NCBI RefSeq assembly: GCF_000786695.1
Contig: NZ_CP009962.1
Location: 2,418,001-2,482,000, forward strand
Source of the DNA: Collimonas arenae
GTDB taxonomy: Bacteria; Pseudomonadota; Gammaproteobacteria; Burkholderiales; Burkholderiaceae_D
Direction: 5' to 3'
DNA: 64,000 nucleotides
A program made the position numbers and the translations under genes. Positions 44,724 through 64,000 of the stretch are shown piece by piece (within the stretch, counting starts at the first letter, position 1; each line of letters opens with the position of its first letter). The notes beneath the pieces are model-generated. The model was not told where the DNA came from. It saw only the letters and a list, made by a program, of their open reading frames with translations, and ran no database searches.

Positions 44724-45521
44724 TTGCGTACGTCTCGGGCGTTGTATCGGTACCAGTCCGTGGCGCGTGATTCATCTGCCTTGACAATGCGTATTAGGGA
44801 AATAACGGCAACACGCATTCACTATGGCTATCGTCGAGTGCATGTGATGTTGAAACGGGAAGGCTGGCAAGACAATGTCAAACGCGTCTATCGGTTATAT
44901 CGCGAACAAGGGCTGTCGCTACGCCTCAAACGCCCCCGCCGTAATCGGACAGCGCGACTAAGGCAGCCAAAGAGTCTGGTGACGGCCATGAATCAAATAT
45001 GGAGCATGGATTTTGTAGCCGACGCTCTATTTGACGGCAGAAGACTCCGTATGCTGACGGTCGTCGATAACCATACGCGTGAGTGCTTGGCGATTGAGGT
45101 CGGGCAAAGCCTAAAGGGAGAGAATGTTGCCATGACGCTGAACCAGATTGCCGCTACCAGGGGATTACCTGAGACGATCAAATCGGATAATGGATCGGAA
45201 TTCATTTCGAAAGTGATGGATCGCTGGGCCTATGAGCGTGGTGTCGAGCTGGATTTCAGTCGGCCTGGGCGGCCGACCGATAATGCCAAGTGTGAAAGCT
45301 TCAACGGCCGCCTGCGGCAGGAATGCCTGAACGAGCACTGGTTCATGTCGTTGGACGATGCAAAACAAAAAATTGAAGCCTGGCGCAAGGAGTATAACGA
45401 GAGCAGACCCCACTCTGCATTACAATGGGCAACACCCGCAGAGTATGCCCAGATGGCAAGGGATAGCGTCATTTCTGGGCAAACAAAAACGTCGGAAATC
45501 TCTACTTCTGATCGGGACTAA
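44724..45521 (+). CDS. IS3-family transposase OrfB (integrase core)
   Basis: 265 residues from the first possible start (TTG at 44724), but the frame is open back to the frameshift site at 44634-44640, so it is probably made mainly as an OrfAB fusion. DDE residues: Asp in SMDFVADALF, Asp in IKSDNGSEF, and Glu in CESFNGRLRQE. HTH_21 region in HYGYRRVHVMLKREGW. Intact, so the IS may be active. Confidence 0.93.
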   Translation: MRTSRALYRYQSVARDSSALTMRIREITATRIHYGYRRVHVMLKREGWQDNVKRVYRLYREQGLSLRLKRPRRNRTARLRQPKSLVTAMNQIWSMDFVADALFDGRRLRMLTVVDNHTRECLAIEVGQSLKGENVAMTLNQIAATRGLPETIKSDNGSEFISKVMDRWAYERGVELDFSRPGRPTDNAKCESFNGRLRQECLNEHWFMSLDDAKQKIEAWRKEYNESRPHSALQWATPAEYAQMARDSVISGQTKTSEISTSDRD

Positions 45522-50253: not shown

Positions 50254-53200
50254 ATGCCGCCTTTTGCCTTCCTGCGACACACTTACAGATGTCAGTCGAC
50301 GTCACTGTTTGCCCTTCCAATGATAGAGGGCGGATGGCTGTCGGCCAGTCGTTTGGCGCAGGTAATTCTGGCCAGGCTTTCGCACCTCGGATTGTTCGCG
50401 GCAGGCGTCCTGTGCCTGCTGTACGGCATGTCGCAAGCGACGGCGCAGACCATGGTGTCAGAAGCGATTGCGGCTGACGCTCACTGGACCCTGGCCAACA
50501 GCCCATACGTGATTAATGGCGAGGTTACCGTGCAGGGCGGCGCCATGCTGACGATTGATGCCGGCGTTACCGTGTACATGACGGCGAATGCCGGGCTAAC
50601 AGTGCAGGCCGGCGGAATTCGCGCTGCGGGCACCGCGGCCAATCCGATCCGCGTGTTATCTGACAAGTCCCGGCAGGGACAAGCTGCTGTTGCGGGCGAC
50701 TGGAATCAATGGGTTTTTAATGCCGGCACCGTCAACACACAACTCGACCACGTGCTGTTTCAACATGGCAAAGGTTTGGCAGTCAATGGCGCAGCACCCG
50801 TGTTCAACTACCTCAATCTTCGCAATCACAAAGGCGCGGCGATCGCAATCGATCTGTCAGCTTCTCCGACCGGCATCGCTAACCAAGCCAGCGGCAACGG
50901 CTTGAATGGCGTCGCGGTTCCTGCCGGGGATATTGCCGGCAGCGTCAAATGGGGCTTGCGCGGCATTCCCTACATAGTCACGTCTGGCATCGTATCGGTG
51001 GGAGCGTCGCCGACGCTGCAAAGCGTCACGCCGAACACTGTAGAGCAGGGGCAGACGGTGACTTTGACACTTAGTGGTAGCCGGCTCGAAGGCGTCGGCA
51101 AGCTGGCTTTTGATAAAGCCGGACTGGCGCTGACGCCGTTTAGCGGTGGCTCCGCCAGTCAGATATTCGTACAAGTCAAAGTGGATCCCAAGGCTGCTAT
51201 TGGAAGCGCCAACCTGGAAATGCAGGTAGATGCGGGCTTGCTCACTCTTGCAAACGCGATCAGCGTAACGCAGCCGATGTCGGTGATCAGCACGGTAGCG
51301 CCAACTACCATCATAGCGGGCGGAGGAGAAACCGAGATCACGCTGACTGGCCGCAATTTCAGCAATGTGTCTGAAGTATTGTTCAATGGCGCCGCGGTGC
51401 CGACGCGCTTTGTCAATTCGACTGAACTGCGCGCAACCTTGCCAAGCCAGACCGTGATAGGGACCTTGCAGGCGCAGGTGCGCTGGCCGGATGCTCAGCA
51501 AGTCGGAAAATTCCTGCTGTCGAATCAGGTGGGACTCGCCGTCCAGGCACCAGTGCCGCCTACCGTCAGCGTTGAGCCGACGCCGATTGCTTTGCCACCA
51601 GACAGCAAGGCGCGCAATATCACTGTGCGTTTGTCAAAAGCGGATTATCGCGCCAACACATTGCGCTTCTCGATTTCCGATGCGAGCAAGGCGTCGGTGA
51701 CGGCAAGCGTGCTGATTCCTGCCGGCCAGACTACCGCTCAGGTCACGATTACGCCATTGGCAACTGGGACGGTCAGCCTGAGCGTCAGTTCGGACACCTT
51801 GCAAGGGATCAGCGTGCCGGTGTTCATCACCGCCGATTTCCGCGGCGCCAATACGGCCTACGCAGCAGCAGTTGGCGTCAACGTGTTGTCCAATGCGGTG
51901 CCAGTGACGCGTCAGATCACGCTGGTGAATGCCAATGTCGGCGTCGCCGTCGGCGCCGTGCTGAGCAATGTGTCGCCAGCCGCCTGGGTTGTCGGCAGCA
52001 AACCGCTTGTCACTATCCGTGGTGCCGGAATTCCTGCCAACGCACAACTGGCACTGGTGCCGAACACTGGCGTGACGCTTGGCGCGGTAACTGTCAGCGA
52101 CGATGGCAGCCAGCTTAGCGCCACCTTCGACACTGCCGCAGATGCCCCGCTCGGTCCGCGCAAGCTAGTAATCAAGGATGCTGCCGGCAAGGAATTGACT
52201 TTCGCCGATCCGGCCAAGACTACCGTGCAACTGATGAGCGGTTTGCCGCAGATCGTCTCTATCGATCCGCTGTTCGGCGCGCGCGACTCGACTGTCAAGT
52301 TGGTGGTGCAGGGGCGCAATCTGCAGCAAGGCCAGGTCCGTGTCCTGAACGATGCCGGCATCCGTATCGACAGCATGCCGCAGGTGAATGCCGACGGCAC
52401 AACGTTGACGGCCTACCTGCAGATTGCGGCCGATGCGCCGACAGGCAGCCGCGTGATACAGATTGCCACGCCGGCCGGCAGTTCGACAGCGACTGCTGCG
52501 ATCGCCAATACATTCACGGTGGTCAGCTCTGTCAGCGGCACCTTGTCGCCGATTGCTGCGCCGTTGGTCGGAGTCATGGTGGGCGCGGCTCCAGGTCCAA
52601 ATACCAATCCCTATCTGGTGAATGCCAAGTCGGTTGGCGTGGTGCTGGGCAGTGGCATCACAGAGGTGGTGCCCAATACCGGTGTGATCGGCACTGATGT
52701 CAGCGTGACAGTACGCGGCGCAGGATTGCAAGGCGTGACCACCGCCAGCCTGTTGCCTGCGACTGGCGTGACGATACTTGGAACACCGAACGTCAATCCT
52801 TTGGGCACCGACTTGTCTTTCACCGTGCGGATCGATGCGGATGCGGCATTGGGCACCCGGAAACTGGTGTTGGCGACGGCTAACGGACCGGTGACATTTG
52901 TCAATGCCAGCGGCGCCAATTTCCTGATCAGCGCCCGTGTTCCGGAACTGATTTCGGTGACGCCGCAAGTGCTGCAGATCGGCCAGCCGGCCGTAAAGCT
53001 GACAGCGCGTGGCCGCAATTTCTCGAACGTCGCAGCAGTGCGCCTCGATCCGGCGCAAGGCGTAACCGTGACCGGACCGCTTGATACCAATCCTGATGCC
53101 ACGGTCCTGAGTTTCTCTGTTGCGGTAGCTGCCGGCGCGCCAGCGGGCGACCGTGTCGTGGTTGTGACATCTGCTGCCGGCGATTCTTCTTCATCGCCGC

Positions 53201-54009
53201 AGCCTGGCAATACAGTGCATGTCGCCAGCCAGAGCGGCGTTACCTACGCCGACTTACCTTCGCAGGTGGTCGGGGTGCAGAACGGCGCCGTGATCGTGCC
53301 GCCGCCGCAACGTATCGATGGCACGCTGGCATCGTCAACTGTTGGTGTCTTGGTAGGCAGTGCATCGCCGCCGCAAAGTGCAGTGCGCAGTGCTTCCAGC
53401 ATGCCGGTCGGCGTGTTGCTTGGCAGTGGTGCGCTGACGCTCAGTCCGAACGGTTGGTTGCAAGGCGCTAACGGCAATATCACCCTCAATGGTCGTGGCC
53501 TGAACAATGTCACTGCCGTCAGCGTGACGCCGGCGACAGGGTTGTTGTTAGGCACGCAGGCGATTAGCGACGACGGTACGCAATTGTCGGTATCCTTGTC
53601 TGTTGCGCCGGATGCGCCAAGAGTACTGCGCCGGTTAATCCTGGCGACTGCGAGCGGCGCCGAACTACCGTTCGCAGATCCTGCCACCGGGCGCTTCGGC
53701 ATTGGCATGCTGCCTAGCGTCAGTTCGATGTCGCCAATTGTCCTGTCGCAAGGGAAGGGCAGCAGCCTGACCGTGCGCGGCGCTAACCTGAAGGACGTCA
53801 ACGGTCTTGTCTTCCTGCCCGCCAGCGGCGTGCATGTCGGCTCAGATCTGATCTGGTCGCAGGATGCCCTGGGCGAATTGCTGACGGTTTCGATCTATGC
53901 CGATCCGGATGCCGCGCTGGGCAGCAGGGCGATCCGCTTCGATGTGCCGGGCGGCAGTACATCCACTACGCCGACGCCGTCCAACACCATCAATGTTGTC
54001 GCGCAATGA
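50254..54009 (+). CDS. Large exported IPT/TIG-repeat protein with N-terminal beta-helix-like module
   Basis: 1251 residues, not recognised as a named protein. Start uncertain: ATG at 50254 or at 50320; neither has a clear ribosome-binding site, and the second gives a more normal signal peptide ending YGMSQATAQ. Residues about 70-230 resemble a beta-helix entry module (GEVTVQGGAMLTIDAGVTVYM, GDWNQWVFNAG). Two IPT/TIG-like Ig domains follow (from about 252, PTLQSVTPNTVEQGQTVTL, and 342, ISTVAPTTIIAGGGETEI), then another Ig-like segment (435-530). The C-terminal 690 residues are three tandem copies of a two-domain unit (from about 561, 770 and 1029), each opening with VGVxVG. No catalytic motif, cysteine or sortase-like anchor is visible. 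Probable structural surface or secreted protein. Confidence 0.75.
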   Translation: MPPFAFLRHTYRCQSTSLFALPMIEGGWLSASRLAQVILARLSHLGLFAAGVLCLLYGMSQATAQTMVSEAIAADAHWTLANSPYVINGEVTVQGGAMLTIDAGVTVYMTANAGLTVQAGGIRAAGTAANPIRVLSDKSRQGQAAVAGDWNQWVFNAGTVNTQLDHVLFQHGKGLAVNGAAPVFNYLNLRNHKGAAIAIDLSASPTGIANQASGNGLNGVAVPAGDIAGSVKWGLRGIPYIVTSGIVSVGASPTLQSVTPNTVEQGQTVTLTLSGSRLEGVGKLAFDKAGLALTPFSGGSASQIFVQVKVDPKAAIGSANLEMQVDAGLLTLANAISVTQPMSVISTVAPTTIIAGGGETEITLTGRNFSNVSEVLFNGAAVPTRFVNSTELRATLPSQTVIGTLQAQVRWPDAQQVGKFLLSNQVGLAVQAPVPPTVSVEPTPIALPPDSKARNITVRLSKADYRANTLRFSISDASKASVTASVLIPAGQTTAQVTITPLATGTVSLSVSSDTLQGISVPVFITADFRGANTAYAAAVGVNVLSNAVPVTRQITLVNANVGVAVGAVLSNVSPAAWVVGSKPLVTIRGAGIPANAQLALVPNTGVTLGAVTVSDDGSQLSATFDTAADAPLGPRKLVIKDAAGKELTFADPAKTTVQLMSGLPQIVSIDPLFGARDSTVKLVVQGRNLQQGQVRVLNDAGIRIDSMPQVNADGTTLTAYLQIAADAPTGSRVIQIATPAGSSTATAAIANTFTVVSSVSGTLSPIAAPLVGVMVGAAPGPNTNPYLVNAKSVGVVLGSGITEVVPNTGVIGTDVSVTVRGAGLQGVTTASLLPATGVTILGTPNVNPLGTDLSFTVRIDADAALGTRKLVLATANGPVTFVNASGANFLISARVPELISVTPQVLQIGQPAVKLTARGRNFSNVAAVRLDPAQGVTVTGPLDTNPDATVLSFSVAVAAGAPAGDRVVVVTSAAGDSSSSPQPGNTVHVASQSGVTYADLPSQVVGVQNGAVIVPPPQRIDGTLASSTVGVLVGSASPPQSAVRSASSMPVGVLLGSGALTLSPNGWLQGANGNITLNGRGLNNVTAVSVTPATGLLLGTQAISDDGTQLSVSLSVAPDAPRVLRRLILATASGAELPFADPATGRFGIGMLPSVSSMSPIVLSQGKGSSLTVRGANLKDVNGLVFLPASGVHVGSDLIWSQDALGELLTVSIYADPDAALGSRAIRFDVPGGSTSTTPTPSNTINVVAQ

Positions 54010-54152
54010 GTACGAAACTGAATAACCGCCGCAGGCAAGGAGCCGTCATGGCAATTGAAAACACTATCAGCACTATTTTTGCAAAAGCACCAAAGCACGC
54101 GGGCGACCGCACAGCATTTCTTTCCCGTTATCCTAGTTTGAGGACTTCATCC

Positions 54153-55718
54153 ATGCATACCCAATATCCAGCGCTGAAGCAGGCATCGACGCGCACTGTC
54201 CCGCTACCGGCGAAGCGTAGCTTGGTCTTCCTGATTTCTGCGATTGCGGCGATGTCCGCGCATGCGTTCAGTAGCGGTAGCACGGGTGCCGACGGTGCGT
54301 TTAGCCCGACCGTCAATACGGAAATTGTGCTGCCGCCATCGGGGGTGTTTAACTACACCAGCATCAATATTCCTGTCGGTATTACAGTAACTTTCAAAAA
54401 AAACGTTGCTAACACCCCTGTTTTTCTGCTCGCCAGTGGCAATGTGACGATAGCCGGCAAGATAGACATTACAGGAAATGATGCAAAACCTACAGGTACA
54501 TACGGTGATGGCGCATTGGCTGATGATGGAGTTCCGGGAACGAGCGGCCCCGGCGGTTATGACGGTGGCCGTGGTGGTCGAAGTGACGCGGCATTACGTG
54601 GGGAAGTTGTCCGCGGAGGAAGCGGTCTCGGACCTGGCGGTGGGCAAGGGGGTATAGAAGGCCCGGACGATTGTTCAGGCGCTCCTTACTATAGTTACTA
54701 TAAATATGTCGGATCCGGCGGGGCCTATGCTACTGATACGCATCCGCCGTTTTCTATTTGGACATGTGGGAGCATCAAGGCTATGACGTTTAAAGCGTAT
54801 GGTTCAGCCTTGTTGCAACCGTTGATAGGCGGTTCCGGTGGCGGCGGAGGGCGAGGGGGGATAAGTTATCCAGGCAGTGGTGGAGGTGGTGGGGCAGGAG
54901 CTATTTTAATTGCGTCTTCAGGCGCATTCAATATTACTGGAACCATCGATGCCACAGGTGGTGACGGAGGCGGGAACGCTGGAACCGGAGCCGGAGGCAA
55001 TGGCGCAGGTGGTTCCGGCGGCGCGATCCGTATAGTCGCGTCATCGATTTCGGGTAACGGGGCGATGCTGGCCAATGGTGGGTGTATCAATTCCAACAAT
55101 CAACGTCGCCAATTCTGCGGTTCTGATGGGGCTTACAATCAATATGGGGGTTCGTCCGGGCGAATTCGAATAGAAGCTGATGCTATTACTTTCTCGGGAA
55201 CGTCTCAACCTGCTTACTCAAAAGATGTTCCCGGGCCGGTGTTCATAAGTAGCGTACCAAGTATGCGTATCGCGTCGGTCGCTGGTCAAGTTGTGCCGCC
55301 CAATCCAACTGGTAATGCCGATATTACGCTGCCCGCAACTACCACTGGCGCGGTTGATGTTACTTTTGAGACCAGTAATGTACCAGCTGGGAATACGGTA
55401 CTTTTACGCGTGGTTCCCGCTTATGGTCAACCGATCGAAGCACTGAGCCCAGCGATCTCCGGTAGCACTGGTACTGGTAGTGCCACTGTCTCGGTGACTT
55501 TACCAGCCGGCCCCAGCACGCTCCAGGCCACCACCACCTACACCATCGTGGTGGCCGGCACCATCGACCTCTCTCGCTTCGCACAAAACGAAGCAGTGGA
55601 AAAAGTCGAAGTAACCGTATCGATGGTCGGTGAAACCAAGGCTCGCCTGCTGACCGCCAATGGCAATATCTACCCGGTGTCCTATGCGACTTTGCGTGCA
55701 GCCGGATTCCAGGGGTGA
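54153..55718 (+). CDS. Exported glycine-rich protein of the surface cluster
   Basis: 521 residues from the ATG at 54153, which has GAGG 9 bases upstream and gives a signal peptide (KRSLVFLISAIAAMSAHA). The frame is open to 54006, where an ATG overlaps the previous stop, and an ATG at 54048 has AGGAG upstream, so a longer protein is possible. After the signal come beta-rich repeats (NTPVFLLASGNVTIAGKIDI) and two glycine-rich stretches (GGYDGGRGGRSDAALRG and GGSGGGGGRGG) with few charged residues. A C-terminal Ig-like domain includes TTTYTIVVAGTIDLSRFAQ. GC falls in 54300-55400. Not recognised; probably a secreted matrix or filament protein. Confidence 0.7.
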   Translation: MHTQYPALKQASTRTVPLPAKRSLVFLISAIAAMSAHAFSSGSTGADGAFSPTVNTEIVLPPSGVFNYTSINIPVGITVTFKKNVANTPVFLLASGNVTIAGKIDITGNDAKPTGTYGDGALADDGVPGTSGPGGYDGGRGGRSDAALRGEVVRGGSGLGPGGGQGGIEGPDDCSGAPYYSYYKYVGSGGAYATDTHPPFSIWTCGSIKAMTFKAYGSALLQPLIGGSGGGGGRGGISYPGSGGGGGAGAILIASSGAFNITGTIDATGGDGGGNAGTGAGGNGAGGSGGAIRIVASSISGNGAMLANGGCINSNNQRRQFCGSDGAYNQYGGSSGRIRIEADAITFSGTSQPAYSKDVPGPVFISSVPSMRIASVAGQVVPPNPTGNADITLPATTTGAVDVTFETSNVPAGNTVLLRVVPAYGQPIEALSPAISGSTGTGSATVSVTLPAGPSTLQATTTYTIVVAGTIDLSRFAQNEAVEKVEVTVSMVGETKARLLTANGNIYPVSYATLRAAGFQG

Positions 55719-55908
55719 TCGTTAGCTCCAGCCGCACATAAGCAAGCTTGACGCAACGCGATGAATCCAGCAGCGCTGCATGGGGATTCCAGAATCCTTG
55801 CAGTACCGGCCAGGATCTGTCCGGACCGGATTCATCGCGCAGGTTCTTGCAGCTGACCGTAACCATTCCACGGCCGTCGCCAGGATATCAACCGTTTTAC
55901 GATGACAT

Positions 55909-58900
55909 ATGACCACTGAAGTCAAATCGCAGCACGCACCGCGTCAACTAGCGCACAATCCCGCATTCCGTGGCGCGGCTGTTGGCTCAGCCGTCCTGAG
56001 GCCGGCGGTTTCGACCGCTCGGCGCGTGGTGGCGGCGCTGACCGCGTTGTCCATGCTGGCGGCATCGATGCCTGTCAATGCAGGTCAGTTGCGCATCGAT
56101 GGCGGTGTGGTCGTCAAATTCGGTGCTGACGCCGGCATGGTGGTGCGCGATCAGTTGTTGAACGGGCAAGGGGTCACGTTCACCAGTCAGAACGACGATG
56201 CTGCCGGCGGCCAGAGCAATACCTTGCCGCAAACACCCGCAGCCGGCGACTGGCGAGGCGTGCGCATGGAGAAATCGTCCGCCGTCAATCCTAACGCCAG
56301 CACGCAGCTGAACGATTTGACGTTGCGCTATGCCGGCGCATCTGGTGCCAATCCTGGCGCGGCGCTGACGCTACGCGGCATCAGCCCGGCGCTGCAATAC
56401 CTGCAAGTCACGGACAGCACGACAGGCCTGCGTCTGATTGATGCTGCTTCGCCGGCCATCACAGGCGCCAGTTTTCTGCGCAACGGCGTCGGCATAGATG
56501 CCGATGGCAATAGCGCGCCGACAGTTGTCAGTACGCAGTTTTCTCAAAGCGCTAACTTGGCGATTCTGAACCGGACGCCGGCTACCATCATCCAGGCCGG
56601 CAGTAACTGGTGGGGCCATGCCAGCGGTCCGAAAGACCTGACTGGCAATCCGCAAGGGCAAGGCGATGGCGTGTCCAGTGGTGTGAACTACAGCGGCTAT
56701 CTTTCATCGGCGCCCTTGCTTAATCCATCAGTACGCTTGGCGGCACCCGCTGCGTACTACCAGCAACGCAACGTCGCATTGGAAATCTCTTGCGTCAATG
56801 CCACCGAATACCGCATCGCCGAAGGCAGCGCCTTCGTCGGCATACCGTTCCAGGCGCTGGCCAACGGCCGTGCCGCGCTCGATTACACGGTTTCCGCCGG
56901 CGACGGCAACAAGCCGGTCACAGTGCAATTCCGTAATGCCAGCGGCACCATCACGACGGCGACGCTGGCCGGCGGAGTATTGATCGATACCCAGGCGCCG
57001 CAGCTGGCGATTGTCAATCCGGCCGCCGACAGCGTGATCAGCAAGCCTATCGTAGTCGAAGCAACCGCCACCGATGCCTCTGGCATCAACCGCGTTGAAT
57101 TCTATCTGGACAACCAGTTGGTGGCGACTCGTACCGCCGCGCCTTACACTTATAACTGGAACACCGATAGCAGCACCGAAGGCAGCCACAAGATACTGGT
57201 GATTGCTTACGACCAGGTCGGCCGCAATACCGAACAAAGCCTAGCCGTCACCCTGTCGCATGCACCGGTGACTCCAGACACAGAAGGGCCGCAGCTGAGC
57301 AATATTAAAGCGGATGGCGTGGCGCTGGCGAACGGCGCAGTACTGACGCGCAATGCCAATATCACGTTGGATGCCAGCGACCGCAGCGGAGTTTCGCGGG
57401 TTGAGCTGTTGCTTGACGGCCAGCTGATTGCAACCGCCAGCGGCTCGGGCAGCTACAGCGCTGCCCTCAATTTGGCCGCTGCCGCCAATGGCGCGCATAT
57501 CTTGGCGATCCGCGCCTTCGATTCGCTCAATAACGTCACCAGCAACAGCTACAGCATCAGCGTGTCGCACGCCGTTCCGGATGCGCCGCAATGGCTTAAC
57601 CCCGCCAGCGGCACGACCACCCGCACGGCCGCGCTGGCATTGAACGGCAGCGCACAAGCCGGTAGCAATATCCAGGTCCTGGTCAACGGCAAGGCCGCAG
57701 GTGCAGTCGTCGTTAGTGGGACGGACGGTCGTTTTGTCAGCAACGTGACGCTTAATCCCGGCGCCAACCAGATCCAGGCCACGGCTAGCGATCAATACGG
57801 CAGCAGCGCGTTGTCTGCCGTATTGCTGGTAACGCTCGACACCAACGTTCCTAGCAGTCCCGGCAACCTTGGTGCGACCGCGCAGGCCCAAGGTAAAGTC
57901 AAGCTGGTATGGAGCCGTTCTAGTGACGTCAACGTCACCGGATATGATGTATATCGCGCCACGACGGCCTTCAACGGCATTGCCGAAGCGGTCAAGATCA
58001 ACAGCAGCGCATTGAGCATCAACAGCTATGACGATCTGCCGCCACAGGACGGTGCTTGGTACTATCGGGTAGTCGCCGTCAACAGTGCTGGCACACCGTC
58101 ATTGCCGTCCAACCAGGTACAGATCGTTTCCGACAGCATCGCGCCGAAGGCTCTATCCATTGTGTACAAGCCGACAGGCAAGGTCGATCCGGTCAGCGGC
58201 CGTACCGGCCAGGGCCGTATCGACCTGATTGTTACAGTCAGTGAAGCCTTGCTGGCGACGCCGTACCTGTCGATCGTACCGCAAGGCGGCGCGCCGATTC
58301 CGGTAGATCTGCTCAAAACCGGCGACACCACCTACAGCGGCAATTTCATGGTCGACGCCAGCACGCCGTCGGGCGTGGCGAATGCCTTGTTCTCGGCACG
58401 CGATGCAGTGGGAAATCGCGGCACCGATATTGATGTTGGTGCAACGCTGAAGATCGATACCGAAGGTCCTGCGCTATCCGGTATTGTGCTGACGCCTTCG
58501 TCGCCAATCAAAAACGACAAGGCGCAACTTGTGCAGGCGACATTGACTTTCAGCAAAGCGCCGAAGACCATGCCAAAAGTGAGTTACCTGTTGTCTGGGC
58601 CGGTCCGCTCACCGGAAGCGGTATCGTTGAACCAGGTTAATCCAACCACCTGGCAGGCCAGTTTTACTCTGGCTAGCGATGCTGGTTTGGCCAGTCCTGA
58701 GATGCTGGTCTTTAGCAGCCAGGCGACCGATGACCTAGATAATATTTCCAATAAAGTAAACGCATTCAATCGCTTCCAGGTGTATCAAGGCAATCTGCCG
58801 CCTCTGAATGTCCCGTTTGGCTTCAGCGCCAAAGCGCAGCCGGGCGGCAAGGTCAAGCTGAGCTGGCAAGCGGTGGCTGACGCCAGCAGTTATCAGCTGT

Positions 58901-61900
58901 ACCGGCAAGGCCCGGGCCAGAACGCATTGCAGACATTGACGCGTGCTAGCGGCGAAGCCTATGTTGATCAGACTACACAAGATGGTGCTTATAAATACGC
59001 CATTGCAACCGTGCGTCAATCGAACGGCCAGGAATCGTTCTCGGTGCAAAGCGCAGCAGTCGATGTGCTGGTAAGCGCAACTGCACCGGGTTCGCCGCAA
59101 AACCTGACGCTGGCGCTGACCGGCCAGGGCATCAAGGCTAGCTGGCAACCGCCGCTGGCGAGCGTGGTCGATAGCTACAATCTGTACCGCGCCGGCGGCA
59201 CCAGTATCACCACGATCGAAGGCTTGACGCCGTTGAAGTCAGGCATCAAGGCACCGCTAGCGCTGGATCCTAGTCCGTCGTCAACCCAAGGGGCGTATGT
59301 AGTGACCGCGCTGGATGCGGCAGGCAATGAATCGGCGATTTCCAACTCCGCCTATCTCAATGCCAGCCTGCTGCCAGTGACGAATCTCAAGGTGGAGCAG
59401 CTGGGTAACGAATTGCCTGTGATTAGCTGGAATGCACCGAACGGCAACGTTGCCGGTTACCTGGTCTATGTCGGCCCTGATGCCAGCAAGACCAAGTTGA
59501 CGCCGCGGCCGATCACTAGCCTCAACTTTACCGATACCGGTTACACCAGCGGCGAGCGGCGCTATACGATTGCCACGGTGGATGCTAACGGCGTCGAGAT
59601 GCCGCGCAGCCTGACCTTGCCGAATGTGGTCACGCAAATCGCTTCCGGCCTGCCGATCAAACGCGGCATCATGAACAAGCTGCAAGTACAAGTAGTCAAC
59701 ACCTCGGCCGGCGCCCAAGACAATGTACGGGTAACCGTTCGTCTGCCGGTCAACAAGGACGCTACGCAATTCCAGATTCATAAATCGGAAGTCTTTACGC
59801 TCGCGCCCAATGAAACCAGGTTGGTGACCGTGGTGGTCGGCGGCTATGCCGATTTGCCGAGCCAGGCGCAGGCACAAGTCGGGGTCGAGATCAGTCCTAA
59901 CGATGGCGAACTGGTCCGCCTCAGCCACAACGACAGCATTACCGTCGGCGACAGTGCGCTGGTGGTGGGCATGGCGACCGATGAATTCACGCGCGGCGGC
60001 ATCGGCAAACTGAAGCTGACCATTGAGAATACGACCGAAGTCGATATCGAGCTGTTGACTGCCACTAATAATGGCAGCGCAGATTCGTCGGAACTGCGTT
60101 TCAAAATTCTCGATGCGGACGGCAACGTATTGGCAACCCAGGCATACAAACAGGTATTCGGCGCCAACGTGGTGACGCTGACCAACGGCCAGACCGTGGC
60201 GCGGATTCCTGCCGGGTCCAGCTATACCTCGGACGTGTTCAACCTGAGTGTGCCGGCGTCCAGCCCGAACAGCATCCGGGTCAGGCTCGACGTCGATCAG
60301 CTGCGTTATCACAGCGGCCAGGACGACCAGATCCTGATCAGCGGCCGCGGCTCCGAGAAGACCGTGTCGCTGGTCGACAGCGCCTATGTCGGTGAAGTCA
60401 CCAAGGTCAACCCGATCAGCTCGTTCGGCGACCAGGACATCCTGATCGGCGGCCGTGCGTTCGACCGCAAGACCAATGCCGCCTTGCCTAATACACGGCT
60501 CAAGCTGATTCTGAACCAGCAGGGCTTCGAGCGCACCTTCAGCGTGTTGACCGACGCATCCGGCGAATTCAACTACAACTTCAAGCCGACCGTCACTGAT
60601 GCAGGCTTGTACAAGGTGTCGGCCGTGCATCCTGATATTACGGATCGTCCGGAGCAGAAGGCGTTCAGTATCAACCGCGTGACGGTCAGCCCAACGCCGT
60701 ACAAGCTCGATATTCCGCGCAACTATCCGTTCACGATCCCGTTCACGGCCAAGGCTGGCGTTGGCACTGTCGCAACCAACCTCCGCTTGATACTTGATGC
60801 CGGTAGTCAGTCGACCGGGCAGTTGCCGCTTGGTGTCATAGCGCAATTGTCCGCGCCGGTATCTTTAGCAGAAAAACAGACCCTCAACATTCCAGTGGTT
60901 TTCAGTGCGAACAACGACGCTCAGCCTTCCGGTAATTTGATTCTTAATGTCATGAGTGACGATCATCCAAGCTCCCCGATAGGGCAGGTCAAGATTGACT
61001 ACACCTTGTCCGAGGCAAAGCCGTTCTTGATCACCATCCCGAGCTTTGTGCAAACAGGTATGGCACAAGGCGGTAGCGATATCGAATCGGTGGTTGTAGA
61101 GAACAAGGGATTGCAAGAAGCGCTGAATCTGCAATTCTCGTTCACCAAGGCCGACGGTTCCGCTGCGCCAAGCTGGGCCAGCATCGCTAGCCAGGCCAAC
61201 GGCACGCTGGCAATCGGCGAGAAGCGTTCGATCGACTTAGCCTTCACACCGCCTGCAGGCACGCAGGAAAGCGTGTACGAGTTCAAGCTCAAGGTGCAAG
61301 GCGACAACGTGCCACAACAGACGCTCAACGTTTACGTCAGCCTGACGCAAAGCGGCAAGGGCAACGTGCTGTTCAAGGCCAGCGATCTCTATACCGCCAC
61401 GGTCGACAAACAAGGCAAGCTGATTCCAGGCCTGGCGAACGCCAGCGTCACCTTGCAGAACGAAGATGTCATCACGGTGACGCAAGAGCTGGTCACCGAC
61501 AGTCTGGGCGAAGCACTGTTCCAGAACTTGCCATCAGGCCGCTACACCTATCGCGCCAAGGCTGACAATCATCAGGAACTGGGCGGCAGGTTGCAGATCA
61601 AGCCGGGTATCACTACAAACCAATCGGTGTTCCTGGACTACAACCTGATCAAAGTGGAATGGAGTGTCAGTGAAGTGTCGATCCAGGATCGCTATGACGT
61701 TACTCTCAATGCGACGTTCGAGACAGATGTCCCGGCGGCAGTTGTAGTGATGCAGCCACCCAGCATCAATTTGCCAAAAATGAATTCAGGCGACGTGTAT
61801 TACGGTGAGCTTGCCCTGCAAAATTATGGTTTGATCCGTGCCGACAATGTGCGTCAGAAGCTGCCCCAGAGCGACACATTTTTCCGCTATGAATTCCTGG

Positions 61901-62277
61901 TTGAAGTTCCTCCTGTTCTCAACGCCAAACAGCGCGTGACGATCCCATATCGCGTTATTGCGCTGCAAGCACTGGACGCTGCGGCAAGCACCGGAAGTGC
62001 CAGTGGAGGCGGTTGCTACAACTATAGCAGCACGACGAGTGTGAGTTGCCAGTTCACCTGTGCCAACGGTGCTGAGTCTTCTTGCGGAGCTTCGGCCTCA
62101 TGGTTTGCTGTCAGCAATAGTTCCTGCCCTGCCGGCGGCGGGGTGGGGGGCGGCGGAGCCGGTGGTGGCTTTGGCGGTGGCTTTGGCGGTGGCGGTACAG
62201 GCACCCCAGCCACGCCTATCAGTATCAAAGGCAAGAAGTGTGTAAAGGTACCAGATGGCAAGGGAGGCGACTGCTAA
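55909..62277 (+). CDS. Giant exported protein with beta-helix, Ig-like and FN3 domains
   Basis: 2122 residues. The long N-terminal signal region ends ALTALSMLAASMPVNAG. Residues about 57-270 are a right-handed beta-helix-like module (GGVVVKFGADAGMVV, GDWRGVRMEKS, NWWGHASGPKDL). Ig-like domains follow (about 360-640, e.g. VEFYLDNQLVATRTAAPYTY, VELLLDGQLIATASGSG). Four fibronectin type III domains begin at about 647, 964, 1057 and 1154, with a different Ig-like stretch at 740-960. Then come CARDB/APHP-like and carboxypeptidase-regulatory-like domains (about 1244-1900; DASGEFNYNF, LPSGRYTYRAKADNHQ). The last 90 residues hold several cysteines (CYNYSS, CQFTC, CGASA, CPAGGG) and a glycine-rich tail before KKCVKVPDGKGGDC. 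It precedes an RHS gene and overlaps its start by one base. Confidence 0.85.
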   Translation: MTTEVKSQHAPRQLAHNPAFRGAAVGSAVLRPAVSTARRVVAALTALSMLAASMPVNAGQLRIDGGVVVKFGADAGMVVRDQLLNGQGVTFTSQNDDAAGGQSNTLPQTPAAGDWRGVRMEKSSAVNPNASTQLNDLTLRYAGASGANPGAALTLRGISPALQYLQVTDSTTGLRLIDAASPAITGASFLRNGVGIDADGNSAPTVVSTQFSQSANLAILNRTPATIIQAGSNWWGHASGPKDLTGNPQGQGDGVSSGVNYSGYLSSAPLLNPSVRLAAPAAYYQQRNVALEISCVNATEYRIAEGSAFVGIPFQALANGRAALDYTVSAGDGNKPVTVQFRNASGTITTATLAGGVLIDTQAPQLAIVNPAADSVISKPIVVEATATDASGINRVEFYLDNQLVATRTAAPYTYNWNTDSSTEGSHKILVIAYDQVGRNTEQSLAVTLSHAPVTPDTEGPQLSNIKADGVALANGAVLTRNANITLDASDRSGVSRVELLLDGQLIATASGSGSYSAALNLAAAANGAHILAIRAFDSLNNVTSNSYSISVSHAVPDAPQWLNPASGTTTRTAALALNGSAQAGSNIQVLVNGKAAGAVVVSGTDGRFVSNVTLNPGANQIQATASDQYGSSALSAVLLVTLDTNVPSSPGNLGATAQAQGKVKLVWSRSSDVNVTGYDVYRATTAFNGIAEAVKINSSALSINSYDDLPPQDGAWYYRVVAVNSAGTPSLPSNQVQIVSDSIAPKALSIVYKPTGKVDPVSGRTGQGRIDLIVTVSEALLATPYLSIVPQGGAPIPVDLLKTGDTTYSGNFMVDASTPSGVANALFSARDAVGNRGTDIDVGATLKIDTEGPALSGIVLTPSSPIKNDKAQLVQATLTFSKAPKTMPKVSYLLSGPVRSPEAVSLNQVNPTTWQASFTLASDAGLASPEMLVFSSQATDDLDNISNKVNAFNRFQVYQGNLPPLNVPFGFSAKAQPGGKVKLSWQAVADASSYQLYRQGPGQNALQTLTRASGEAYVDQTTQDGAYKYAIATVRQSNGQESFSVQSAAVDVLVSATAPGSPQNLTLALTGQGIKASWQPPLASVVDSYNLYRAGGTSITTIEGLTPLKSGIKAPLALDPSPSSTQGAYVVTALDAAGNESAISNSAYLNASLLPVTNLKVEQLGNELPVISWNAPNGNVAGYLVYVGPDASKTKLTPRPITSLNFTDTGYTSGERRYTIATVDANGVEMPRSLTLPNVVTQIASGLPIKRGIMNKLQVQVVNTSAGAQDNVRVTVRLPVNKDATQFQIHKSEVFTLAPNETRLVTVVVGGYADLPSQAQAQVGVEISPNDGELVRLSHNDSITVGDSALVVGMATDEFTRGGIGKLKLTIENTTEVDIELLTATNNGSADSSELRFKILDADGNVLATQAYKQVFGANVVTLTNGQTVARIPAGSSYTSDVFNLSVPASSPNSIRVRLDVDQLRYHSGQDDQILISGRGSEKTVSLVDSAYVGEVTKVNPISSFGDQDILIGGRAFDRKTNAALPNTRLKLILNQQGFERTFSVLTDASGEFNYNFKPTVTDAGLYKVSAVHPDITDRPEQKAFSINRVTVSPTPYKLDIPRNYPFTIPFTAKAGVGTVATNLRLILDAGSQSTGQLPLGVIAQLSAPVSLAEKQTLNIPVVFSANNDAQPSGNLILNVMSDDHPSSPIGQVKIDYTLSEAKPFLITIPSFVQTGMAQGGSDIESVVVENKGLQEALNLQFSFTKADGSAAPSWASIASQANGTLAIGEKRSIDLAFTPPAGTQESVYEFKLKVQGDNVPQQTLNVYVSLTQSGKGNVLFKASDLYTATVDKQGKLIPGLANASVTLQNEDVITVTQELVTDSLGEALFQNLPSGRYTYRAKADNHQELGGRLQIKPGITTNQSVFLDYNLIKVEWSVSEVSIQDRYDVTLNATFETDVPAAVVVMQPPSINLPKMNSGDVYYGELALQNYGLIRADNVRQKLPQSDTFFRYEFLVEVPPVLNAKQRVTIPYRVIALQALDAAASTGSASGGGCYNYSSTTSVSCQFTCANGAESSCGASASWFAVSNSSCPAGGGVGGGGAGGGFGGGFGGGGTGTPATPISIKGKKCVKVPDGKGGDC

Positions 62278-64000
62278 TGCTTAATCGTACCTGCCCGCAT
62301 CAATTTTCAAATACCGATTTGACTATCACAAAGCGATTAACAAACATGGCAATATCATTTGTGCAGCATTGGCGCACGCGGAGAATCGGCTCTCGGGTCG
62401 GCATGACAATCCTGGGCTTCCTGATGGCTTGTGCGATAGCGCAGGCACAAACACCATCAGTTGGTGTCGTCAGCCCGCCAAACGGCACGTTCAGCCAGGA
62501 AATTGTTGATTTGCAGGTGCAGACTCCAGCAGGTGAAGTCAGTTGGCGCAGGGTTTTTAATGGCACAGGCTGGCGTTTCAATCGCCATTGGGATGGCATC
62601 TCCGCAAGTTATAAGCCATTGTCAACGCAAAGTACCGGCGGTGGCGCAGGTAGCAATATGTCTGGCGGTGGACAGTCCGGATGCTGGGTATGGGTTGACG
62701 AAGACTGGAGTCCGGGGGCTGCGGTGGCCGGTGGCGCATTTAAGGTTGACGCCATCAGCTACATTCCGTTTAATCAAGTCTACTCACAACAGGGGCAACC
62801 GCTTCAGGTATTCAATGTAAATTCCTGTGCTTCGTTAGGTGCCAGCTCGGAAATATTTGAAGGTTATCGGCGCCTGTCCGGCCTGTATGTGGGGGGCAAC
62901 GGCAGCTATGTATTCAAGAATCGCTACACATTAAAAAAGCAGTCTTCCCTTAAACTGCCGATTACTGCTACGGTGCCAGGTGGAAATCCACAAAGCGGGA
63001 GTGTCAGTGTTTCGAGTGCTATCACGGTACAAGGCTGGCGCTGGCAAGATCGCAAGGGCGATTGGGTTGAATATGATAGTCAGGGACAGATTTCGCGTTA
63101 TGGCGATAAAAACGACAACGTCGTTTGGATGCAGCGCGACACCCAAGGGCGGATAGAGCGCCTCATCGAGGGTAGCAGTGGCAAGACGATATTTACCTTG
63201 CACTATAATAGCGCTGGTTATCTGGTCGAAATCAGAGATTATTCTTTGACAGGCAATGGGCTTGATTTACCTCAACGTAGCGTCAAGTATGCTTATGACC
63301 CTGACGGTCAACTCATAAGCGTCACCGACGCTCGTGGTTTTGTCACGAACTACAATTATGACGCACAGCACCGGCTGAGTACGATCACCGACCCGGAGCA
63401 GCGAGCGTCGACCATCAGCTACGACGGCGAGTCCAGCAGCGTCTCCAAGCTGATTGCTGCAGATGGCGGTCAGAATGACTATTCTTTCAGTTACGACGAC
63501 GCCAAAAAATTCTTCTATAGCAAACTGCAGGGACCAGTTACAGCAAGTGGTCGCCGGGTTGAAGACTACACGCATGATCGTGCCGGAGATTTGGTCAAGT
63601 ATGAGGTGAACGGTCGCACTGACGTTGCGGTCACCCGGGATCCGGGAGCACGTACAGAAACGCGCGTTAATGCACGCGGTTTCACAACGGTGCTGACCAA
63701 GAACGAATTCGAGCAAGTGGTGCAGGTAAAAAATGAAGACGGCACCTTCACCAGCACCCAGTTCGACGCTCGCAATCTGAATCCGATTGAAACTGTCGAT
63801 GAAGCCGGCATCAAGAATCAATTTGCCTACGATGCCAAAGGCAATCTGATCCAACGTACTCAGGCCGCAGGTACTGCGGATGAGCGAGTTACTGACTATC
63901 AGCTCGATAATGCTGGACGTGTGAGCCGGGCGACTTTGCGAGGTCGTGCGGAAGAAAATGGCGTTGTAACGCAAGACGCGGTTTGGCAATTCACCTATGA
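62277..64000 (+). CDS. RHS/YD-repeat protein, N-terminal part
   Basis: 574 codons visible; the frame is open at the right edge. The ATG at 62277 shares one base with the preceding TAA stop and has GGGAGG 9 bases upstream, indicating translational coupling. The N-terminus (MLNRTCPHQF...) leads to a membrane segment MTILGFLMACAIAQAQ, so it is likely exported. Residues about 60-220 are a unique domain (GEVSWRRVFNGTGWRFNRHW, CWVWVDEDWSPGAAV). From about residue 240 there are RHS/YD repeats (YDSQGQISRYGDKND, YDPDGQLISVTDARGF, YDAQHRLSTITDPEQR, YDAKGNLIQRTQAAG). RHS proteins form hollow cages that often enclose a toxin encoded at the C-terminus, which lies beyond this window. Confidence 0.88.
   Translation, partial: MLNRTCPHQFSNTDLTITKRLTNMAISFVQHWRTRRIGSRVGMTILGFLMACAIAQAQTPSVGVVSPPNGTFSQEIVDLQVQTPAGEVSWRRVFNGTGWRFNRHWDGISASYKPLSTQSTGGGAGSNMSGGGQSGCWVWVDEDWSPGAAVAGGAFKVDAISYIPFNQVYSQQGQPLQVFNVNSCASLGASSEIFEGYRRLSGLYVGGNGSYVFKNRYTLKKQSSLKLPITATVPGGNPQSGSVSVSSAITVQGWRWQDRKGDWVEYDSQGQISRYGDKNDNVVWMQRDTQGRIERLIEGSSGKTIFTLHYNSAGYLVEIRDYSLTGNGLDLPQRSVKYAYDPDGQLISVTDARGFVTNYNYDAQHRLSTITDPEQRASTISYDGESSSVSKLIAADGGQNDYSFSYDDAKKFFYSKLQGPVTASGRRVEDYTHDRAGDLVKYEVNGRTDVAVTRDPGARTETRVNARGFTTVLTKNEFEQVVQVKNEDGTFTSTQFDARNLNPIETVDEAGIKNQFAYDAKGNLIQRTQAAGTADERVTDYQLDNAGRVSRATLRGRAEENGVVTQDAVWQFTY

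Follow-up and report, generated by a model that had tools for sequence, protein, structure and literature searches.

Export through the Sec pathway and the type II secretion system (T2SS) has been proposed as the default route for polymorphic toxins that carry RHS repeats, a HINT domain and a signal peptide (Zhang et al. 2012, PMC3482391, from the sections at hand). In the part of the report available, Bcn-A of Xanthomonas perforans is described as an RHS bacteriocin present in the supernatant, whose activity is lost in an xpsD (T2SS) mutant and which has its own immunity gene; it is a protein of 1398 amino acids with a predicted plug and propeller, reportedly without a signal sequence, and with small partner open reading frames (ORFs) (PMC7259588). 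Bacterial teneurin-like proteins (TLPs) are likewise described as exported shell toxins with immunity genes and no obvious delivery machinery (PMC13018210, excerpts), and a review of myxobacteria mentions two large signal-peptide RHS proteins that act in kin discrimination independently of the type VI secretion system (T6SS) (PMC10433427, excerpts). Here we describe a four-gene block, TIG-GLY-IGFN-RHS, from Collimonas arenae (contig NZ_CP009962.1), which lies at the end of a window of 64,000 nucleotides (bases 2418001-2482000 of the 5.6 Mb genome) and runs on beyond it; window-equivalent positions above 64000 continue the window numbering. We consider it probable, with moderate confidence, that this block encodes the effector side of a multi-component RHS polymorphic-toxin system exported through Sec, and that the genes of the export side lie just downstream. 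The genes concerned are as follows.

50254-54009, plus strand: TIG, an exported protein of 1251 amino acids with an IPT/TIG domain (Pfam; signal sequence by eye)
54006-55718, plus strand: GLY, a glycine-rich exported protein of 570 amino acids (ORF list; no family)
55909-62277, plus strand: IGFN, a giant exported Ig/FN3 protein of 2122 amino acids (Pfam, predicted structure)
62238-64000, running on to window-equivalent 67382, plus strand: 5' part of the RHS polymorphic toxin gene (ORF, Pfam)
window-equivalent 67379-67900, plus strand: candidate immunity gene, 173 amino acids, overlapping the RHS stop by 4 bases

An earlier note, made from the sequence of the window alone, had seen four consecutive plus-strand genes here, with start/stop overlaps or near-overlaps. 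The ORFs and their overlaps are present as described, and the order recurs in other genomes and is therefore more than chance. An IGFN alignment used as query found 143 relatives, the best 80 of which were kept, representing 79 loci that all counts of IGFN loci below describe; an earlier contig scan with the single IGFN protein as query had found no relatives. The loci come from Betaproteobacteria, to which many of the named IGFN relatives belong, Xanthomonadales, other Gammaproteobacteria, Desulfobacterota and a few others; we divided them into 32 close and 47 far loci by taxon and by the identity of IGFN, with close loci at about 49% and above. Where at least 2 kb of sequence was available behind IGFN, 58 of 60 loci had RHS directly behind it or in fusion with it (24/25 close, 34/35 far), and in 19 far loci IGFN and RHS form one ORF. 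Upstream of IGFN, TIG was found in 20, GLY in 16 and both in 16 of the 24 testable close loci; 14 of these loci show all four genes together, and two further ones end right behind IGFN. These counts support the suggestion of the earlier note that the first three proteins may be a dedicated surface scaffold or delivery structure for RHS.

Synteny in wider samples points the same way. Among 274 genomes of the class, including that of the window, IGFN was found in four and GLY in seven, and both only in the window's own genome. The six further genomes with GLY and without IGFN include four in which TIG-GLY precedes giant RHS genes, in one of these with a separate Ig gene in between; two of the six loci show no RHS as far as their sequence reaches. 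At L148, L149, L151 and L153 a TIG-GLY pair stands ahead of other giant RHS genes. Within the family, full-length IGFN was found only in one other genome, G001, of another genus, where the order TIG-GLY-IGFN-RHS is kept and is followed by further RHS pieces; in 15 other family genomes IGFN matches only in part, around the Big_7 region. The G001 genome contains 33 RHS core matches, many in short open frames.

Beyond position 64000, where the earlier note had pointed for a C-terminal core, a toxin and an immunity gene, the sequence does contain the RHS core, a HINT domain, an 86-residue tip and the overlapping candidate immunity gene. The complete RHS protein, of 1714 amino acids, has 13 RHS-repeat stretches (PF05593), PF03527 and PT-HINT in Pfam, and TIGR03696 above its cut-off. 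It is a polymorphic toxin by its RHS/YD repeats, its RHS-associated core and a C-terminal tip that varies between relatives. The window's tip is shared by none of 50 RHS proteins that reach the end of the core, and 47 RHS tails fall into 37 clusters. When 47 tails (46 and the window's) were scanned against Pfam at E 0.001, PT-HINT was found in 11, the window's among them, and a minority matched known toxins: Tox-REase-9 and phospholipase A2 in two each, and further GH-E, Ntox8, Ntox16, LHH, Tae4 and HNH types. Tae4 is a cell-wall amidase in T6SS, and its presence in an RHS tail therefore points to bacterial targets. The window's own AT-rich tip begins Gly-His-His, recalling HNH-type toxins, and a search with the 173-residue protein found eight database proteins, itself included.

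TIG has a TIG domain match in Pfam, GLY has no family match in Pfam or NCBIfam, and IGFN matches Big_7 and fn3, with a sub-threshold match to CarboxypepD_reg. Residues 1240-2122 of IGFN are predicted to form successive Ig-like and prealbumin-like domains, and residues 1250-2122 have 62-76% identity in 119 other proteins, among the matches listed of 283 found. The structure model of IGFN is likewise an Ig-like chain, whose matches to Ig rods and pilins are non-specific (TMq about 0.2 or less). The regions of particular interest are these.

57277-62103, plus strand: IGFN residues 457-2065, alignable as well with the fused IGFN-RHS proteins found in distant lineages (alignment)
62014-62274, plus strand: IGFN residues 2036-2122, the C-terminal Gly/Cys-rich tail (conserved Cys)
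62466-63065, plus strand: RHS residues 77-276, an N-terminal domain ahead of most YD repeats (17 homologues)

The IGFN tail, in which Cys 2036, 2051, 2073 and 2111 are conserved, can be likened to the Gly/Cys linker that joins IGFN to RHS in the fused proteins, and Cys149 and Cys197 of the RHS domain are conserved in the 17 homologues. The predicted structure of one fused IGFN-RHS relative has a cocoon fold.

The earlier note saw no delivery partner, since the window ended there; the start of a T2SS-like cluster is about 8 kb past its end. All genes from RHS through a transglutaminase-like gene (tgl) lie on one strand, the last ending at window-equivalent 84241. Behind the gene for the 173-residue protein come IG1357, an exported Ig protein of 1357 amino acids, then GspG, GspF and GspE, three proteins without a known family at the positions of GspL/M/C, a secretin with TPR, a C-terminal cohesin and, by eye, a lipobox, two prepilin-type proteins, a 240-residue protein without a known family, a rhodanese-domain protein and tgl. 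GspG is accepted as T2SS by NCBIfam (172.8 bits, cut-off 88.85). GspE, GspF and the secretin belong to the superfamily and fall short of the equivalog cut-offs (490.8 of 630.25, 255.8 of 424 and 146.8 of 351.35), GspC and GspH-M were not found in the cluster above NCBIfam cut-offs, and the proteins taken as L, M and C and the 240-residue protein have no NCBIfam match at all. The transglutaminase-like enzyme is encoded separately and its conserved triad is intact; the rhodanese-domain protein (L012:2441-3361) apparently, by eye, is without the usual catalytic cysteine.

This cluster accompanies IGFN in most close relatives. In 19 of the 31 close genomes, chosen together with 25 far genomes for their longer contigs, the secretin was on the IGFN contig in 16, within the locus or at most 13.4 kb from its end; of the three exceptions, L036 and L042 run into the edge of a contig, and L055 is without the machine. 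The cluster genes detected in the 16 linked genomes keep their order: GspE, GspF, the secretin, the three small genes and IG1357 were found in all 16, GspG in 14, tgl in 13 and a rhodanese in forward orientation likewise in 13, three Xanthomonadales clusters having neither tgl nor a forward rhodanese. The same secretin type occurs in 58 of 145 family genomes, and in 20 other family clusters, chosen by us from 80 secretin rows and including one in G001, none of IG1357, rhodanese and tgl was found. A GspE tree, on which IGFN-type clusters and other clusters each require 2 changes against about 12.4 in shuffles (17 and 20 rows), was rejected as proof of a single origin.

The effector side of the system is made firm by co-occurrence, fusion and polymorphism. 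The sequences themselves show the order of the genes and their co-occurrence, the IGFN-RHS fusions, the polymorphic tips, the toxin domains that some relatives carry and the conserved enzyme triad. The cocoon is a prediction for a fused relative; that assembly takes place in the periplasm and that this machine is the exporter are inferred, as is what we say of tethering, of the target and of killing. Once in the periplasm, RHS would fold into a closed cocoon of YD repeats resembling the T6SS Rhs cores, enclosing the variable tip toxin, which HINT and the RHS core would release, while the overlapping 173-residue gene would protect the producer. IGFN would be a long Ig-like rod whose Cys/Gly-rich tail holds the cocoon, the two being one polypeptide in many lineages and separate partners here, perhaps joined by disulphides. 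TIG and GLY may be accessory exported proteins, perhaps a surface base, and the T2SS-like machine, which is likely to be the exporter, would with IG1357, the rhodanese and the transglutaminase-like enzyme carry the rod and its cocoon through the outer membrane, where it could mediate contact-dependent killing of non-kin bacteria.

Several observations weigh against this proposal. Its main weakness is that linkage to the machine is missing in G001 and in most far loci. The four genes of G001 have no machine in the 39 kb around them, and the two secretins of this type in that genome are 0.28 and 4.2 Mb from the block; at L055, a Methylococcaceae locus, IGFN, RHS, IG1357 and rhodanese follow one another without T2SS genes among them; only two of the 47 far loci have a secretin match (up to 10 kb per side), at 25-26% identity; and no GspL/M/C was detected in any of the three Xanthomonadales clusters. 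TIG and GLY were found upstream of IGFN in none of 24 far loci. RHS is not directly behind IGFN in L050, nor in L097, where IG1357 lies between. Neither the window's tip nor the 173-residue protein matches a known family, and most of the 47 tails have no toxin-family match at the threshold given above. Locus L050, from an Accumulibacter metagenome-assembled genome, has IGFN and then T2SS-like genes about 5 kb on, with no RHS between.

That the effector block is real while the T2SS-like cluster exports IG1357 or other proteins, RHS leaving by the general T2SS or another route, is the strongest alternative, and we judge it unlikely though it carries some weight. In its favour, besides the missing linkage, 56 of the 58 family genomes with this secretin type are without full-length IGFN, and Bcn-A is described as dependent on the Xps T2SS (PMC7259588, part of the text). 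The linkage in 16 of 19 close genomes argues against it, as does the restriction of IG1357, rhodanese and tgl, in the clusters compared, to those of the IGFN type. The machine type is also repeatedly associated with other RHS proteins. For 79 of the 80 secretin rows (the second piece of one frame, in G121, being omitted), at least 11 have an RHS core within 20 kb, where 1.04 would be expected under uniform placement of the RHS rows listed, and at least 10 of 78 if the window's genome is excluded; the remaining 68 of 79 rows have no RHS core within 20 kb among the matches listed, which weighs against our main proposal.

The neighbours of these secretins are of several kinds. Giant SpvB/TcdB/RHS proteins or pairs occur near the secretin in G085, G106, G037, G141 and G138, a giant PPC protein with RHS in G143 and G117, RHS on the opposite strand to the machine in G016, G100 and G078, and a giant of another kind, RCC1/fn3/Big_7, beside the machine in G038. 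Loci L127, L130, L131, L160, L161 and L164 show the same secretin type adjoining a giant SpvB/TcdB_midN/RHS protein, or SpvB/TcdB with a separate RHS gene, which by sequence look like Tc-BC-like cocoons in another setting, and in two genomes of the window's genus (L157-L159) giant PPC-domain proteins and RHS genes lie behind the machine. It is conceivable, though we lean somewhat against it, that one branch of the type IV filament superfamily, with a lipobox/TPR/cohesin secretin, is a dedicated exporter of several kinds of cocoon toxin (IGFN-RHS, SpvB/TcdB-RHS and PPC-type RHS). It would release or display a shell that is already loaded and carried on an Ig rod, and would form a class of toxin delivery distinct from T6SS, contact-dependent inhibition (CDI) and toxin complexes (Tc).

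Long Ig/FN3/TIG proteins are typical of adhesins, and the block could encode an adhesin or a matrix at the cell surface, with RHS as a structural part rather than a weapon. The matches of the IGFN model to Ig rods and pilins and the lack of a toxin-family match in most tails would suit such a role, which the PT-HINT domains, the recognised toxin domains, the very variable tips and the AT-rich tip with its overlapping small gene nevertheless make improbable. That the transthyretin-like part of IGFN and the RHS shell are a teneurin-like protein split in two is very improbable indeed: the CarboxypepD_reg/prealbumin-like match near the IGFN C-terminus, the export of the RHS shell and sequence and structural matches to the TLP chains 9pt5 and 9ifo speak for it, and teneurin-like membership was rejected because no NHL propeller precedes the YD shell, NHL repeats being absent from IGFN and RHS in Pfam at E 0.1. 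The fold comparisons are compatible with an FN-plug as well as with its absence.

Signal sequences were judged present in all four proteins by eye. TIG and GLY overlap by 4 bases (ATGA, from the DNA), and IGFN and RHS meet at TAATG, where the in-frame ATG at 62277 shares one base with the IGFN stop; RHS may start there or at GTG 62238. GLY and IGFN are separated by 190 bases, the remaining block junctions being tight. Public-database versions of these two proteins are shorter (556 and 2082 amino acids). G+C content is 50.2% in RHS, 54.6% in GLY, 58-61% in TIG, IGFN, IG1357 and the machine genes and 45-46% in the RHS tip and the gene behind it. A promoter and terminator scan of the locus gave counts close to those in shuffles. 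An IS3-type transposase-like ORF (by eye) lies at 44724-45521, about 5 kb upstream of the block.

Among known systems, the locus may be compared with the T6SS Rhs effectors (RhsA, VgrG-Rhs, Tse5, Tse15), with which it shares RHS repeats and core by sequence, a cocoon fold, here from the model of a fused relative, and a variable C-terminal toxin with an adjoining small gene. Unlike these, the window's RHS has a signal sequence (by eye) instead of PAAR or VgrG, which are absent from it in Pfam, and no T6SS gene was found among the neighbouring proteins scanned. SpvB and TcdB_toxin_midN are absent from IGFN and RHS (Pfam, E 0.1). T6SS or Tc membership was therefore rejected; the families co-occur and the locus is neither, the opposite of the two outcomes by which the earlier note would have been refuted. 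The genome's other RHS gene (L011, 4006000-4025000), of 1520 amino acids and beside VgrG-, ClpV-, TssF/TssG- and TssA-like ORFs (by eye), looks like an ordinary T6SS Rhs effector. As to two-partner and CDI systems, no TpsA domain or CdiB-type partner was found among the exported and cluster proteins scanned.

The earlier note's suggestion of a new class of RHS system was too strong, because a Sec/T2SS class was proposed in 2012 (PMC3482391, in part) and Bcn-A is reported to need a T2SS (PMC7259588, in part); in the open-access literature searched, no paper among the matches listed treats this gene set or a multi-component RHS version with its own T2SS-like machine. For the export of signal-peptide RHS toxins and of teneurin-like toxins, the latter described as having no obvious delivery machinery (PMC13018210, excerpts), the locus offers a candidate machine and also a rod partner, which in other lineages is one protein with the shell; if true, this would give RHS cocoons a second way out of the cell and provide a marker by which more of them could be found in genomes. 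Bcn-A differs from the window locus in that the part of its description available has no TIG, GLY or IGFN and no machine of its own (PMC7259588), and TLPs, in the excerpts available, are identified by FN-plug, NHL and YD-shell models, whereas the window proteins are without NHL (PMC13018210). The machine resembles T2SS in a GspG that passes the cut-off and differs in a secretin with TPR and cohesin. In the class of Zhang et al., as far as the available sections describe it, there is no signature neighbourhood gene and the transglutaminase is fused and inactive (PMC3482391), whereas here a machine is linked and the enzyme is separate with its triad intact. We regard the system as a Sec-exported RHS polymorphic toxin in multi-component form, probably with its own T2SS-like machine.

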